From the NCBI GenBank assembly GCA_021205755.1, contig JAJPWX010000110.1, forward strand, positions 19,389-83,388: DNA of 64,000 bases, read 5' to 3'. Positions 42,323 to 49,946 of the stretch are shown here, one piece after another. The position numbers were made by a program, and so were the translations under genes. The notes under the pieces were generated by a model. It was given only the letters and a program-made list of their open reading frames with translations. It was not told the DNA's origin and did no database searches. Position 1 is the stretch's first letter. Every line of letters begins with the position of its first letter. This DNA comes from Lachnospiraceae bacterium (GTDB lineage: Bacteria > Bacillota > Clostridia > Lachnospirales > Lachnospiraceae).

Positions 42323-43099
42323 TCAACCATGATTTTGAATGGAATCCAGGAACCCCCTCGCACGCTCTGTCGCCGGATGCGCAAAAAACTCCTCCGGTGT
42401 ATTTTCTTCGAGAATCTGCCCTGCATCCATAAACAGAATACGGTCTGCGACACGTCTGGCAAAATTCATCTCGTGCGTAACAACCACCATCGTCATCCCA
42501 TCTCTGGCCAGTTCTGTCATAACGGCCAGAACTTCCCCAATCATTTCCGGATCAAGCGCACTGGTTGGCTCATCAAATAAAATTGCCTTCGGATGCATGG
42601 CAAGAGAACGCGCAATAGCAACCCGCTGCTGCTGCCCTCCGGAAAGCTGTGCGGGCATTTTGTGGGCCTGACTGTCCACACCGACCCGTTTCAGCAGATT
42701 CATTGCCTCCTCCTGTGCTTCCTTTTTGGATTTATGGAGCACTTCGGTCGGACCCATCGTGACATTATCCAGTATTGTTTTATGGGCAAAAAGATTAAAG
42801 GATTGAAACACCATGCCTACCTGTGAGCGAAGCTCCGCCAGCTTTCTGCCCTCTTCGGGCATAGTGACCCCATCAATTCGAATCTCCCCTGAATCAATGC
42901 GCTCCAGACGGTTGATGGTACGGCAAAGCGTAGACTTTCCGGAGCCGGATGGGCCTATGATCACCACCACTTCTCCTTTTTTTACGGAAAGGCTGATATC
43001 CTTTAATACATGCAGTTCCCCGAAATGCTTATCTACATGCTTCAGTTCAATGACCGGAACCTGCCCGGCCGAATCCAAGTTTGTGTGTGTATTTGCCAT
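42323..43099 (-). CDS. Polar amino acid ABC transporter, ATP-binding protein
   Basis: 258-residue ATPase of the GlnQ/GluA class that powers uptake of a polar amino acid. Walker [14 protein letters not shown]-loop VFQSFNLF, signature [16 protein letters not shown], Walker [15 protein letters not shown] and the H-loop [10 protein letters not shown] are intact. ATG 43099 is chosen over the GTG at 43123 for its AAGGGG spacing. Last gene of a four-gene transporter unit. Confidence 0.95.
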
Positions 43100-43119
43100 G
43101 CTGTTTACGCCCCTTCCTT

Positions 43120-43941
43120 TCACAATTGTTGCGCATTTTTCCTGCGCTTTGACAGAGCAACTGAAATTTTATTCAGAGCATAATTGATCAGAATATAGAT
43201 CACCGCCACAACCAGATATACGGAAAGCAGTGCGTCGTAATTGCTGATCAGCACTTTGGCATTCTGCATCAGATCCGCGTAGTTCACAACGTAGGCAAAG
43301 GTAGTATCTTTCAGGACAATCACCAGTTCAGAAATCAACGCCGGAATCACATATCGCAAAGCCTGTGGAAAAACAATCTTAAAAAATACACTTCCGTCCC
43401 GCATCCCCAGAGACAAAGCAGCTTCACTCTGTCCTTTCGGCACTGCGTTTACACCAGAACGCAGAACCTCCGCAACGACTCCGGAGGCTGAAATTGCTAC
43501 GGGTGCTGTGATTTTCCAATACGAAGGAAGCTTCAACCCGAACTGCGGTGCAATCAGGAAGAAAAAATAGATAAACAGCAGTGTCGGAACACCGCGGGTA
43601 AATTCAATCAATGCCCTGCCGATTCCCCGAAGGACTTTATATTTGCTGATTCTCCCGAGCATCATACCCATCCCCAGCGCAAATGCCACTGTCCCGGCTC
43701 CCAGCGCCACCTGGAGTGTTCCAACAAGCCCTCTCCCCAGAAAACGCCATGTCGTATAGCGGGTAAACAATGTCCAATACTTTGCGTCCAACTGACCATT
43801 GACAGCAAACTGCCGGATCACCAGGGTAACGAGTACCGCAATTCCAACCAGAGAAACCGCCGTCACCGCAGTAATTATCTTCCGTGTCTTCGGCCCGGGC
43901 GGTTCATAAATTGCATCTCTTATCGAAACATTCCCACTCAT
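43120..43941 (-). CDS. Polar amino acid ABC transporter permease
   Basis: 273-residue inner-membrane permease with about five helices, of the HisM/GluD type. The EAA loop appears as [24 protein letters not shown]. An N-terminal cytoplasmic extension (about 25 residues) precedes the first helix. Overlaps the second permease gene by 4 nt (ATGA). Confidence 0.93.
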
Positions 43942-44597
43942 CGCATAATCCTCACTTTTTGATCAATTTTGTTTCCCACCAGACCTATTACAACAGCAGT
44001 TGCACAGTAAAAAAACGCAGAAATGACAAAAGCCGTAATGCCGCCGACCGTTCTTGTATTGATGTAGGATACAATGCCTGTCAGGTCGGTCGGGTTCAGC
44101 GGAACCAGAGCCGCCAGAGACGTAGTAAGCATGGTCGCAACCAGCAGATTTGTCATCTGTAAAACAGAAGACCGGAGTGCCTGCGGAAGAATCACATTTT
44201 TCACCATCTGGAAGAAAGTCATTCCCAGAGATCTGGCCGCCTCAATCTGCCCAATGTCAATGGTGTTCATGCCAGCCATCAGATATTCCGAGCAGAAAGC
44301 AGACGGAATCAGTGATGTAGCGATCAGTACGCACGTATAATAAGACCAGAGAAACCCAATGTACGGAAATGCGTACACCAGAAGGATCAGCAAAGCGGCG
44401 CCTGGTATATTACGGAATATCTGGACATAAAAATCTCCGACCAGACGCAGCGGTTTGATCGGACAAATCCGCATAACTGTAATGACTATGCCAATGACAA
44501 AGGCCAGGACAAATGCAAAAAAAGTCAGCTTCCAGGTCATCAAAAGTGCCGACAGATATTTGTCTCCATATTGTGTTAACAGGTCTGATACAGACAT
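43938..44597 (-). CDS. Polar amino acid ABC transporter permease
   Basis: 219 residues with about five helices; EAA loop as IEAARSLGMTFFQMVKNVILPQAL, typical of GluC/HisQ permeases. It forms a heterodimer with the neighbouring permease. The track start at 44771 spans non-coding leader; ATG 44597 has AAAGGAGGGG right before it. Confidence 0.93.
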   Translation of the reverse strand: MSVSDLLTQYGDKYLSALLMTWKLTFFAFVLAFVIGIVITVMRICPIKPLRLVGDFYVQIFRNIPGAALLILLVYAFPYIGFLWSYYTCVLIATSLIPSAFCSEYLMAGMNTIDIGQIEAARSLGMTFFQMVKNVILPQALRSSVLQMTNLLVATMLTTSLAALVPLNPTDLTGIVSYINTRTVGGITAFVISAFFYCATAVVIGLVGNKIDQKVRIMR

Positions 44598-44667
44598 AAA
44601 GCCCCTCCTTTTTGATGTACGAAAGCTTTCGGACAGAAAAGCAAAAGAGGATTGCAAAACTGCGAAT

Positions 44668-44701
44668 AAGGCCCTCAGGGGTACTGTCCTTGAGAGCCTT
44701 T
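44668..44701 (-). terminator. Hairpin between the binding-protein and permease genes
   Basis: On the minus strand GGCTCTCAAGG can pair with CCCCTGAGGGCC around a short loop. No strong U-run. It may act as a partial terminator or stabiliser, letting the binding protein be made in excess. Confidence 0.35.
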
Positions 44702-44802
44702 CTCCATATTGTTCCTGAACATTCAGCAGCAGAGACCTGCATCTGATGACAGGGCATAACCAATCATCCATTGCAATCCGAATCCAAAAGAATCCGTACG
44801 CT

Positions 44803-45750
44803 TTATTCTTCCCCTACAACCGGAGCATCCGGTACCGTGTCAATCCCGGTGCGGTCGCCGAGGCAAATCTGCCACAGCTCCGCCCATGTGCCGTTATCAA
44901 TGATCTCCTGCAGGAATTCATTTACAAACTCTACGCCATCCGAGTCAAGCGGAAGTCCAATACCGTAATTATCCTCTGGTCCGAACACATCTCCCGCAAT
45001 CTCATAGACATCCGGATTCTTTACAATCGCGTTCAAAAGAAGCGTGTAGTCCGTAACATAAGCGTCAACTCTCCCCTGCTCCAGCGCCGTACGAGCTTCG
45101 GTGTCGGTCTCGAACTCCTGTACAGTAGCGTCCGGCGCATACTCAGCCAGAATATCCGGGCCGGTAGAACCAGCCTGAGTTGCGACTACCTTACCTGCCA
45201 GATCATCTACGCCGGTGATCTCTGTATTGCCAGCCACCACAAGCACAGCCTGCTGGGAGGTATAATACGGACCTGCAAAAGAAATCACTTCTTTGCGGGA
45301 ATCCGTAATGGAATAGGTCGCTACTACAACATCTACCTGGTCACTCTGCAGAACTGCCTCGCGGGTGCTCGAATCTACCTGCGTCAGTTCATAAGCAGTC
45401 TCATCTCCCAGAATATACTTGGCAAGGAGCTGATAAAGACCTGCATCGAATCCGCGAAGACTGTCGTCCGTCTCATCCAGCTGGCTGAACAGGAAAGAAG
45501 TCCTCGTACCGCCGACTCTTAACACACCTGCTTCTTTAACAGCGGTCGCCCACTCACTAGAGGCAATCGTATCGTCATCCGCCACAATACCAGAGGCAAT
45601 CAACTCATCAAATGCATCCTTGTCAATCGCCACAGAATTATCTTCTGTCTCGGTTTCAGTTTCGTCCGCAAGTGCATTCGTTCCCAGCGTAAAGCTCAGA
45701 GCCATAGAAAAAGCCAGCGCATACGCCATTATCTTTTTATAAACCTTCAT
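44803..45750 (-). CDS. Polar amino acid ABC transporter substrate-binding protein
   Basis: 315-residue family 3 solute-binding protein, likely for glutamate, glutamine or a related amino acid. The family-3 motif is seen as DDSLRGFDAGLYQLLAKY, with SITDSRKEVISFAGPYY and VVATQAGSTGPDILAEY. The signal peptide (AYALAFSMALSFTLGTNALADE) ends at an ALA-like type I site and has no lipobox Cys, unusual for a Gram-positive binding protein. An acidic spacer follows the cleavage site. First gene of the transporter unit; preceded by its own promoter. Confidence 0.93.
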   Translation of the reverse strand: MKVYKKIMAYALAFSMALSFTLGTNALADETETETEDNSVAIDKDAFDELIASGIVADDDTIASSEWATAVKEAGVLRVGGTRTSFLFSQLDETDDSLRGFDAGLYQLLAKYILGDETAYELTQVDSSTREAVLQSDQVDVVVATYSITDSRKEVISFAGPYYTSQQAVLVVAGNTEITGVDDLAGKVVATQAGSTGPDILAEYAPDATVQEFETDTEARTALEQGRVDAYVTDYTLLLNAIVKNPDVYEIAGDVFGPEDNYGIGLPLDSDGVEFVNEFLQEIIDNGTWAELWQICLGDRTGIDTVPDAPVVGEE

Positions 45751-45771
45751 GATTCATTTCCTCCTCATTCC

Positions 45772-45788
45772 CCTACTTCTTTAGTAGG
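45772..45788 (-). promoter_or_regulatory. Small hairpin in the binding-protein leader
   Basis: CCTACT-TCTTT-AGTAGG, a perfect 6-bp inverted repeat in the 5' untranslated region, 22 bp upstream of the start codon. Confidence 0.4.
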
Positions 45789-45811
45789 AATAGTATGTTT
45801 TACACTTTCTT

Positions 45812-45840
45812 ATCATACACCTTAATGACCAATTCGTCAA
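45812..45840 (-). promoter_or_regulatory. Promoter of the amino acid transporter operon
   Basis: On the minus strand TTGACG, 17 bp, TATGAT, 61 bp before the binding-protein ATG. Confidence 0.75.
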
Positions 45841-45869
45841 GCCCATATACCTACTGTTTTAATATTTTT

Positions 45870-46604
45870 TTATTCTCCCTTGCATCTGTCAAGGAAAAAA
45901 CGATACACCATACGCCCGTCTGCAAGTCTGTCCGTATTTTTATTTCCCGTACCTTCGGCCAGCATGGACAGCGACGATTCTTTCAGAAATCTCTGCATGG
46001 TAAAATCTTTTCCCCCTGAGATAGAAAAACCGCAGCGTTCCGGATGCCACTGGACTGCCCAGATCGGATACTTTCTGTGTGTAAACCCTTCCAGTATGCC
46101 ATCTTCCGCAAACTGATTCAGCACAATCCCGTCGCCGAGTCTGTCTACTGCCTGATGGTGGTGACTGTTGACATATACATGCTCTCCATAGAGATGCGCC
46201 AGCCAGGAGTCTTTGGATGCCACGGCTCCATGCAGGCAATCTCGGGCTCCGTCCCCATTGTGTGTGTCTCGTTCCGCAATATTCTGAACCAGGGAACCTC
46301 CAAAATAAACATTAATCAGCTGCATTCCCCGGCAAACACCCAAAACAGGCTTCTTTGCGCGAATAAACTCCTCCAGCATTTTCATCTGAAGATCATCTTC
46401 AGCATCATTTATACCCTGGCTTCCCAAATTCGGCTGTCCATACCACACAGGATTGACATCACATCCTCCCGGCAGCAAGAGGCCGTCAAAATGCTCTGCC
46501 GAGTCAAACGCTCCTATCACCAGGGGCTCTGCCCCCAGATGTTTTAACACTGCAACATAATTATCCGGTCTATAAGAAAATACCGGTATCGCAATTCTAT
46601 TCAT
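45870..46604 (-). CDS. Peptidase C26 / gamma-glutamyl-gamma-aminobutyrate hydrolase family (PuuD-like)
   Basis: 244-residue class I glutamine-amidotransferase-like hydrolase that may cleave gamma-glutamyl amides. Nucleophile Cys in PVLGVCRGMQLINV, with LLPGGCDVNP upstream and the His-Glu in VQWHPERCGF. SHHHQAVDRLG is also conserved. ATG 46604 follows AGGAGG. Its position directly before a polar amino acid transporter suggests that the released glutamate or amine is linked to that import, which is inference. Confidence 0.9.
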   Translation of the reverse strand: MNRIAIPVFSYRPDNYVAVLKHLGAEPLVIGAFDSAEHFDGLLLPGGCDVNPVWYGQPNLGSQGINDAEDDLQMKMLEEFIRAKKPVLGVCRGMQLINVYFGGSLVQNIAERDTHNGDGARDCLHGAVASKDSWLAHLYGEHVYVNSHHHQAVDRLGDGIVLNQFAEDGILEGFTHRKYPIWAVQWHPERCGFSISGGKDFTMQRFLKESSLSMLAEGTGNKNTDRLADGRMVYRFFLDRCKGE

Positions 46605-47117
46605 ACGATTCCTCCTGAAAATTATGTGTATCATACCACAAGTTTCTCCAGGAGACAATCAAAAGCTTACGGGTACTCTTCCAAATATATTGTCCGGTGT
46701 TTCTGCAAAAGTTCAGCTGAAGTGAAAAGTTTATTTCCACACCAAAATTTGTGATTTTCCGGTGGATTTCACTCTTTCAGGGATTAAAAGCACAGTCAAG
46801 GAGTAAAACTTCATTCCATTTACGCCATCATTTACCCAGTAGAATTGGGTAGGCCATATGGTGTAAGACTGATTTCCACTAGGTTTTTGCTGCGAACGCC
46901 GGAAATACAAGTGGAATTTTGAGTAAGACTGAATTCCACTTGTACCCCCGAGTTGTGGAATTTAAATTTTCATTTCACTCTGCAAAAGTTCACATAAAGT
47001 TTTATCATGTTTCAATTGACATCCGTCTAAAATCACAGTAAAATAAGGAAAACAGCCCAGATAAATATCAAAATGACATACTATGGATACCATCTCCTAT
47101 TTTCAGAGAGGAACAGG
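46605..47117. repeat. Repeat-rich non-coding region
   Basis: About 510 bp without a gene. TCTGCAAAAGTTCA occurs at 46702 and 46979; GTAAGACTGATTTCCACT at 46863 recurs with one change at 46923, 60 bp on; and TACAAGTGGAATT (46906) with AATTCCACTTGTA (ending 46944) forms a perfect 13-bp inverted repeat. More GTGGAATT/ATTTCCAC pieces are scattered around. The pattern suggests a decayed mobile element end or a clustered binding region. The last 100 bp hold the promoter of the next gene. Confidence 0.65.
47016..47044 (+). promoter_or_regulatory. Promoter of the HEETH-motif protein gene
   Basis: TTGACA, 17 bp, TAAAAT, 73 bp before the start codon. Confidence 0.8.
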
Positions 47118-48140
47118 ATGACTTCAACACGCATACATCGGATAAAAAAATATCTGCGTCTTTTCATTTTCATATTTCTATTCTCCCTGCATTTTACGGG
47201 TTTCTTTGGGTCATCCGAATACTCCAGCTTTGTTTTGAGCGCCCAGGCTGCCTCCGCGAGTGTTCCAAGCCTGAATGCCAAAATCACGCAGAATAACATA
47301 TTGAAAATTCTAAACGCATATGATACAGACGGCGCGTATCTTATCAAAAACAGGATCGAGGCTGGCGATAATATCCTGACCTGGTTCGCGGGCTGCTCTG
47401 ACATCTTAAGCGGGATCGATACCGCAGTCCATGAGGAAACCCACATCTATTCCTATGCGGCGGAGAAAAAGGGGAAGGCTGCTTATTACGTGGGCAATCA
47501 GAAAGTCATCTACGTCCCCTATACAGATGTATTTCAGACCGTGGAAATGGCTTCTTCCATCCCTTCGAGTCTCCGTACCTTCCGGTACAGCGCTTATATC
47601 GCAGATCCGAGTGAAAACCTGGCCTCAAATGTAGACGGCATTTACGGCCTGCTGAATGAATTTATGGCCTACCGCTCCGGCATGAACACCATCGTTTCCC
47701 TTTACGACTACCTGATGGATCAGGACGCCGACTGGGATACCTGGATGCTCTTTATCAACGAGTGTGAAAATGACATGCAGGCTTACGCCGAGTTTAAGTA
47801 TTACATCCTGCATTACCTTTACTATGCAAAGCAGAATTATCCTGCCGTTTACAAGGCGATCATTCAGAACACCCAGTTCTGCAAGGCCTACAAAAAACTG
47901 GAAAGCAGTTACGCGAAGCTGATCCGCCAATACCAGAAGGATCTGACAAAGCTGCAGAAGTATTACGCAAAAAAGGGCTACACGCTCACGATCAAAAACA
48001 GCACGATTTCCCTGACTACCCCCGAGAAAAAAACCATCAGTATCTCCCGCTGCTACAGCACGTATCTGAAACTTGAAAAGCAGCTGAACAAAACGCGCTA
48101 TACAAATCTGCACAATAAACTGCTCGCCGGAGTCAGCTGA
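47118..48140 (+). CDS. Secreted protein with HExxH motif, candidate zinc metallopeptidase
   Basis: 340 residues of no family I can name. N-terminal signal peptide (LRLFIFIFLFSLHFTGFFG, then SAQAASAS). It contains HEETH (VHEETHIYSY, about residue 114), a match to the HExxH zinc site, and about 80 residues later NEFMAYRSG, which could supply the third ligand as in gluzincins. The remainder is rich in Tyr, Lys and Leu, with a helical tail (KLIRQYQKDLTKLQKYYAKK). ATG 47118 has AGAGAGG upstream. Monocistronic with a good promoter. Exported to the outside; substrate unknown. Confidence 0.6.
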   Translation: MTSTRIHRIKKYLRLFIFIFLFSLHFTGFFGSSEYSSFVLSAQAASASVPSLNAKITQNNILKILNAYDTDGAYLIKNRIEAGDNILTWFAGCSDILSGIDTAVHEETHIYSYAAEKKGKAAYYVGNQKVIYVPYTDVFQTVEMASSIPSSLRTFRYSAYIADPSENLASNVDGIYGLLNEFMAYRSGMNTIVSLYDYLMDQDADWDTWMLFINECENDMQAYAEFKYYILHYLYYAKQNYPAVYKAIIQNTQFCKAYKKLESSYAKLIRQYQKDLTKLQKYYAKKGYTLTIKNSTISLTTPEKKTISISRCYSTYLKLEKQLNKTRYTNLHNKLLAGVS

Positions 48141-48198: not shown

Positions 48199-48759
48199 TC
48201 ATTTTGAATCAGCATTTTTCTGTATGTTTTCTCTTTCATCAAGGTCACGCTGCAGCGCGTCCAGATAGGGCACCAGAAGTCCGCCCCGCGGATGAATGTA
48301 ATAATTCTGGTCAAGCTCCACATAGCGGAAGCTCTTTCGCCCACCATTCTGTGCACGGTTCCAGAATTTCATCATGTCACGGTAGGGCAAATAAAACAGT
48401 TCGTTTCTCACACTGAAAAACAGGATCAAAAAAGAAATCCCGCCCTGCTCCTCAAAGCGGGTCATAAATTCCACCTGATGCGGATGGATATTCTGGAGTG
48501 CAAAAGTATCTATCGTACATTCCTTGGCGTCAAAGCAGACCGGGAGTCCCTGCACCACGCCGATGTAATCGACCGTACTCTTCTGTTCAAAATAGGCGAG
48601 CGTAATGTGGCGCTCATCTTTATCAATTTTCAGCGGCGTGATCGGCGTCGGTATCTTCTGAATCAGCGCAAGCTTCTTCTCCAGATAAACCTCATTGGTT
48701 CGATTGATCAGCTCCTCCAGAGTTGAACCGCGCAGGCCGCGCGTATTCCAGGTCGCCAT
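48199..48759 (-). CDS. recU: Holliday junction resolvase RecU
   Basis: 186-residue endonuclease that resolves four-way DNA junctions in Firmicutes. The N-terminus NTRGLRGSTLEELIN and the active-site region STVDYIGVVQGLPVCFDAKEC match the family; the common ExK is DAK here, as FDAKE. HQVEFMTRFEEQGGISFLILFF is conserved. ATG 48759 follows AGGAGG; the track start at 48861 overlaps the preceding gene. In many relatives it neighbours a penicillin-binding protein gene; here it is last in a run of minus-strand genes. Confidence 0.88.
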   Translation of the reverse strand: MATWNTRGLRGSTLEELINRTNEVYLEKKLALIQKIPTPITPLKIDKDERHITLAYFEQKSTVDYIGVVQGLPVCFDAKECTIDTFALQNIHPHQVEFMTRFEEQGGISFLILFFSVRNELFYLPYRDMMKFWNRAQNGGRKSFRYVELDQNYYIHPRGGLLVPYLDALQRDLDERENIQKNADSK

Positions 48760-48791
48760 ATGATTCCTCCTGCTGTTTCCAGTACTTTTTT

Positions 48792-49946
48792 CTACAAATT
48801 CCGCTTTCGAGTCCTGTTTTCGCTCTGATCCGTCCAAGACAGATGCCGCTGAGTTATGCAAGTGTGATCGGTAACCATCAGAGTCTCAAACACTTCCGGC
48901 AGCGGAGCGCAAAAAGACTTCCCGGACAGATAAGAGAGCGCCCCCTCTATCTGCGGAAATTCCAGCCGATAGGCATGCAGCAGCTGGCTGTGTATGCCGT
49001 GGGAGTGTGCAAATGCCTTGTTTTTCACCGGATTCCCGTATTTGGGATCGCCGAGAATCGGATGTCCGACACTTGCCAGATGCGCACGGATCTGGTGGCT
49101 CCGGCCGGTAATCAGGTGAACCTCCAGAAGTGTCAGTCCATGTGCGGCGAAAAGCACATGGTACTCGGTCTCAATCGGCTTCGCCCCCTTGGATGGCGCA
49201 TTTGTCACCGTCACTGTATTTGTTCGCTCATCCTTTTGCAGATATCCGCGCAGGTGACTGTCGGCATGCAATTCCCCGCAGACAACGCAGCGGTAATATT
49301 TGCGCACCGTCCGCTCTTTCAAAAGCCGGTTCATGGTCTGAAGACCCGCGAGACTCTTTCCGGCCACAACCAGGCCGCTCGTATTGCGGTCCAGCCGATT
49401 GCAGATCGCCGGACGGACAAGTTGCATCTGCTCGCGCGTCATAGAATCGGAAGCCAGCAGATACGCGTTCAGATATTCCACCAGAGAAACATCCCCCGGC
49501 GACGCCTTCTGTGAGAGCATCCCCACGGGCTTATTAAACAAAAGAATATGCGCGTCTTCATAAACAATCTCCGGCGGCTGTACGCCTGCGACAAGGGTTG
49601 GAACCTCCGACCGGAGGTGAGACGCAGGTTTTCTGACCGAATCTGTACTTCTCAGAGAATCCGATGCCAGAGAATCGGAATGATCTGGCGCCTGTTCCCT
49701 CTCCTGGACGCCCTGTTGAATTCGTACGCCCCCAAATTTTTCGTATGTCTCCTCGGAGAGAAACAGCTTCACGAGATCATTGGGCTGAAGGATTTCCCTG
49801 CCCTCCGCCTTTTTCCCGTTCAGAGTGATATTCTTTTTTCGAAGCATTTTATAAAGAAAGCTCTTGGGCGCCTCCCGCATATAGCGCGCCAGCAGCTTAT
49901 CCAGCCGCTGGCCGGCGTCCCCCTCCTCTATCCGAATCTGTATCAT
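48792..49946 (-). CDS. RluA/RluC-family pseudouridine synthase
   Basis: 384 residues, modifying rRNA or tRNA uridines. S4 domain (about 15-75, GQRLDKLLARYM...FLYKMLRKKNITLNGKK) then the catalytic domain with the Asp in ICNRLDRNTSGLVV and LITGRSHQIRAHLASVGHPI. Between them is a long linker (about 75-130) with repeated ASDSLR-like units and a segment SHLRSEVPTLVAGVQ encoded by a palindromic DNA stretch (49585-49628). The C-terminus is basic. Start ATG 49944-49946. The next gene upstream is 80 bp away. Confidence 0.9.
   Translation of the reverse strand: MIQIRIEEGDAGQRLDKLLARYMREAPKSFLYKMLRKKNITLNGKKAEGREILQPNDLVKLFLSEETYEKFGGVRIQQGVQEREQAPDHSDSLASDSLRSTDSVRKPASHLRSEVPTLVAGVQPPEIVYEDAHILLFNKPVGMLSQKASPGDVSLVEYLNAYLLASDSMTREQMQLVRPAICNRLDRNTSGLVVAGKSLAGLQTMNRLLKERTVRKYYRCVVCGELHADSHLRGYLQKDERTNTVTVTNAPSKGAKPIETEYHVLFAAHGLTLLEVHLITGRSHQIRAHLASVGHPILGDPKYGNPVKNKAFAHSHGIHSQLLHAYRLEFPQIEGALSYLSGKSFCAPLPEVFETLMVTDHTCITQRHLSWTDQSENRTRKRNL
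49585..49628. repeat. In-frame palindromic insert in the RluA-type gene
   Basis: Outer CCTGCG/CGCAGG and inner ACCTCCG-AC-CGGAGGT arms, nested. It encodes part of the domain linker and leaves the frame open. The nested plan resembles a cruciform or palindromic repeat element. Confidence 0.6.

Follow-up and report, generated by a model that had tools for sequence, protein, structure and literature searches.

A candidate family of secreted HExxH metallopeptidases in Lachnospiraceae and other Firmicutes

Results

The window analyzed here, a 64,000-nucleotide stretch of Lachnospiraceae DNA, carries on its + strand a gene for an exported HExxH protein of 340 aa (47118..48140; ATG at 47118, stop codon at 48138-48140 included). 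The start is preceded, 6 nt upstream, by the ribosome-binding-like site AGAGAGG (47105..47111, +), identified by eye in the sequence. An alternative start, ATG 47073, would give 355 aa and was rejected because it lacks a ribosome-binding site. A consensus scan of the region found a promoter-like site, TTGACA-17-TAAAAT (47016..47044, +), matching the consensus at 11/12 positions, in surroundings where the count of such sites does not exceed that of shuffled sequences. The first-pass annotation had credited the gene with its own strong promoter: the near-consensus site is present, and "strong" can be read only as a statement about the match to the consensus. The intergenic region upstream (46796-46940) also contains three imperfect 25-nt direct repeats at a spacing of exactly 60 nt, with 64-100% identity to the reference copy, possibly a regulatory or a degenerate element.

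The gene is monocistronic here: it lies between a Peptidase_C26/GATase gene on its upstream side (45870-46658) and a gene for RecU on its downstream side (48199-48861), each read from the opposite (-) strand. This agrees with the earlier remark that no partner gene follows, and inspection of 17 loci by eye revealed no evident conserved partner. The HExxH gene adjoins recU in 5/5 of the related loci L001-L005, and a hisZ-like gene lies directly upstream of it in four of them, the contig of the fifth ending at that point. In the window, a block encoding a glutamine amidotransferase (Peptidase_C26) and an amino acid ABC transporter (42323-46658) stands between hisZ and the HExxH gene; it is missing at the corresponding place in L001, L002, L004, and L005. 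One relative (L008:445-3893), unlike the other sampled loci, is flanked by two same-strand genes for signal-peptide-like proteins.

The N terminus of the protein resembles a signal peptide by hydropathy (residues 1-45; 47118..47252, +): a basic stretch leads into the hydrophobic core FIFIFLFSLHFTGFF and then SAQAA. Hydropathy revealed no second membrane span in the mature part, in line with the earlier description of the protein as exported. The mature part contains HEETH at residues 105-109 (47430..47444, +), with H105 and H109 as predicted zinc ligands and E106 as predicted general base. It is followed by NEFMAY at residues 180-185 (47655..47672, +), an E-x-x-A-Y context in which E181 is the predicted third zinc ligand. 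Both motifs, reported by the first-pass annotation as HExxH and a later NExxA-type motif, are kept in the family. The segment from R156 to Y160 (47583..47597, +), invariant at both ends in 28 sequences, offers candidate transition-state or substrate contacts. Finally, AEF at residues 224-226 (47787..47795, +) contains a second invariant glutamate, E225, which could be an alternative ligand or a catalytic residue. When the mature sequence was shuffled 20,000 times, HExxH arose by itself in 0.16% of cases and together with a downstream [ND]Exx[AG] in 0.01%. At the level of sequence, we regard conservation as stronger evidence for the HExxH/Glu motif than this rarity.

The protein could not be assigned from its letters, and the family searches led to the same outcome for Pfam, NCBIfam, PHROG, and PDB-sequence families. 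Against Pfam and NCBIfam it gave chance-level matches or none, and none above a curated cut-off; an alignment of 15 members (A1, 14 of them relatives) matched nothing in Pfam except one accessory domain. Single and profile searches of the HExxH domain against PHROGs and PDB sequences returned chance-level matches only. The phage collection held no relatives of the HExxH domain, and the matches of one relative (L018) there were confined to its accessory domain. Among titles and abstracts in the literature, we found no paper describing a family of such HExxH proteins.

We did find about 30 relatives, with identities from 84% down to ~20%. They come mostly from Lachnospiraceae, with a few from other Firmicutes, one from a Carboxydocella plasmid, and one from an IMG/VR contig. 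Six Lachnospiraceae loci encode proteins 58-85% identical to that of the window. Searches of whole genomes added more distant relatives, with hits in 16/47 genomes of the genus-level search, 6/200 of the family-level search, and 4/399 of the phylum-level search, the window's own genome being counted in the latter two; two genomes have two and three copies of the family. The family is rare, patchily distributed, and mostly found in Lachnospiraceae, and it extends beyond the gut. The original attribution to gut Clostridia was too narrow, since relatives also exist in other Firmicutes, among them an environmental Carboxydocella with its copy on a plasmid, and in a large viral contig of IMG/VR. 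The member on this 344-kb contig (L020:3425-4684) is distant and has HETTH, DEFSAY, and YEF. The ORFs beside this gene gave no match to PHROGs and thus no confirmation of a phage origin for the contig.

Several relatives have accessory domains: Choline_bind_2 in L011 (E 1e-7), Cu_amine_oxidN1 in L016 and L018 (E 4e-43 and 3e-13), fn3 in L014 (E 8e-7), and a weak fn3 match in L044. These choline-binding, copper-amine-oxidase-N, and fn3 domains support an extracellular role. The first two kinds would also suit a secreted metal-dependent hydrolase that uses the same HExxH center on a substrate other than ordinary protein, e.g., the cell wall. Copper-amine-oxidase-N domains are found on endolysin-type phage proteins as well, and the absence of a fold match to known peptidases (see below) points the same way. 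However, most known secreted enzymes with HExxH and a Glu are peptidases, and Pfam revealed no recognizable wall-binding domain in the window protein itself, and we consider such a substrate improbable. In one further relative, of 629 aa (L050:1381-3288), the HExxH domain comes after an internal hydrophobic segment and a long region rich in Ser, Ala, and Asp, an arrangement that suggests a protein anchored in the membrane rather than released.

Eighteen positions are invariant in the 28 aligned sequences: H105, E106, H109, T136, R156, Y160, G174, Y176, G177, E181, Y185, G188, E225, F226, Y233, Y236, Y245, and N251; A184 is kept in 27/28. The invariance of HExxH, E181, and E225 holds down to ~20% identity. 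The collection of homologous frames required the E181 region and not HExxH, so the invariance of E181 in this set is partly built in. E181 is also invariant in alignments A1 and A3, which were made from whole matches, and one relative outside the E181-region filter (L030) has, by eye, HEEFH, NEFCAY, and AEF. The spacing from H109 to E181 is 72 residues in the window protein and 70-87 across the family, and that from E181 to E225 is 42-45 residues, with L011 (35) as the sole exception. The ratio dN/dS was ~0.05-0.15 against six relatives, with dS near saturation. These data indicate, as far as sequences can tell, that the putative active-site residues are conserved and that the gene is under purifying selection.

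Homologs lacking HExxH, named by the first-pass annotation as a case contrary to its proposal, were absent among the 28 aligned sequences. This bears on the idea of a surface protein with a binding or structural role and a noncatalytic HExxH. Such a protein would be in keeping with a family that has no solved or characterized relative and whose catalysis is predicted. Yet the two histidines and the glutamate of HExxH are invariant despite low identity, and a noncatalytic metal site would not need E106, which makes this idea very unlikely.

The AlphaFold2 model of the full-length protein, built from a shallow alignment of 8 sequences, is mainly helical (mean pLDDT 83.9, pTM 0.80), with low pLDDT at residues 25-46. 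HExxH lies within a predicted helix (97-115) that is followed by two beta strands in a predicted hairpin (120-134). E181 falls in helix 175-194 and E225 in the long, very confidently predicted helix 206-240, after which come a long helix and a small sheet. All four residues of interest, H105, H109, E181, and E225, are thus in confident predicted helices. Foldseek gave no match at E<=0.001 to the PDB, zincins included, or to viral models. The explanation may be that no relative of this fold has been solved, or that a helical protein is at the limits of what Foldseek can match. When trimmed to a core of residues 48-261, the protein was modeled poorly (pLDDT 55, pTM 0.48), and this second model was left out of the fold search. 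From the models, the C-terminal helices seem to be needed for the fold and the C-terminal half to be an integral part of it.

E181 is placed as expected for the third ligand of a gluzincin, and E225 is equally invariant; with both glutamates conserved, the assignment of the third ligand is ambiguous. A secreted HExxH metallopeptidase could use E225 instead, leaving E181 in a structural or second-shell role. The invariance of F226 next to E225 and the confidence of their long helix fit this arrangement. On the other hand, the E-x-x-A context typical of a gluzincin ligand surrounds E181, which lies 72 residues after H109, versus 116 for E225. We therefore favor E181 as the likelier ligand, with E225 possible in that position at a fairly low probability.

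Discussion

Our analysis suggests that the window encodes a single-zinc secreted metallopeptidase of a new, unnamed family that probably works like a gluzincin; we infer the zinc, the geometry of the site, the catalysis, and the substrate. The basis for this is the export-like N terminus, the invariance of the motifs, purifying selection, and the fusions to surface domains in relatives, together with the E-x-x-A-Y context of E181 and the predicted helices that contain HExxH and both glutamates. The evidence against it is the absence of matches by Foldseek, to peptidase profiles, and to PDB sequences. The protein would be exported across the membrane and act outside the cell, with zinc held by H105 and H109 from one helix and, most likely, by E181 from a second one. 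E106 would activate a water molecule for the attack on the peptide bond. R156, Y160, Y176, and Y185 could stabilize the transition state or bind the substrate, and E225 could be a second-shell or substrate residue. The enzyme may be free or, through the cell-wall-binding or surface domains present in some relatives, held at the cell surface, and it would cut peptides or proteins there.

The first-pass annotation had suggested a new secreted peptidase family. An unnamed family with HExxH and Glu invariant in every aligned relative does exist, and its peptidase activity is a prediction. A bolder proposal, which we put forward tentatively and hold to be somewhat doubtful, is that this new secreted metallopeptidase family has a mostly helical fold outside the solved structures, with two invariant glutamates (E181 and E225) beside HExxH, and occurs on Firmicutes chromosomes, on a plasmid, and on a large viral contig. 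None of the family libraries searched contains a model for the window protein, and one relative takes its name from an attached accessory domain only. If these proteins are peptidases, Lachnospiraceae and other Firmicutes gain a patchily distributed family of secreted enzymes in which the targets for mutagenesis are evident and fusions to surface domains already exist among the relatives. Should the fold truly lack a solved relative, a structure would reveal another scaffold for an HExxH site.

Gluzincins such as thermolysin (M4), neprilysin (M13), and the M48/M56 families have an HExxH helix and, on a second helix farther along the chain, a Glu within an E-x-x-A-type motif. The family described here has the same two elements on predicted helices. 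The E-x-x-A-Y context is the pattern of gluzincin glutamate helices, and the spacing of 70-87 residues between HExxH and the Glu is within the range of families such as M13 and M48. The family differs from gluzincins in lacking a profile match and a Foldseek match to a solved zincin, in its second invariant glutamate, E225, and in a mostly helical model whose C-terminal half is seemingly integral. Hence, as the fold comparison with solved members gave no match, we do not file the protein as a gluzincin. In classical zincins a sheet precedes the HExxH helix, whereas our model has no sheet before this helix and two beta strands after it, which also counts against the proposed reading. Closer at hand, AVX40812.1 from the Carboxydocella thermautotrophica plasmid pCCELLA01 (77% of the query covered, 34% identity, E 5e-28) is a member of the family, with HELNH and DEFNAY. 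It differs in being annotated as a "Copper amine oxidase N-terminal domain-containing protein," a name derived from its attached C-terminal domain only and not from the HExxH domain. M60-like metallopeptidases are reported to be extracellular proteins of host-associated microbes (PMC3267712). Although the window family has no Pfam match to any family of that kind, what it appears to share with them is an extracellular HExxH domain in host-associated bacteria.
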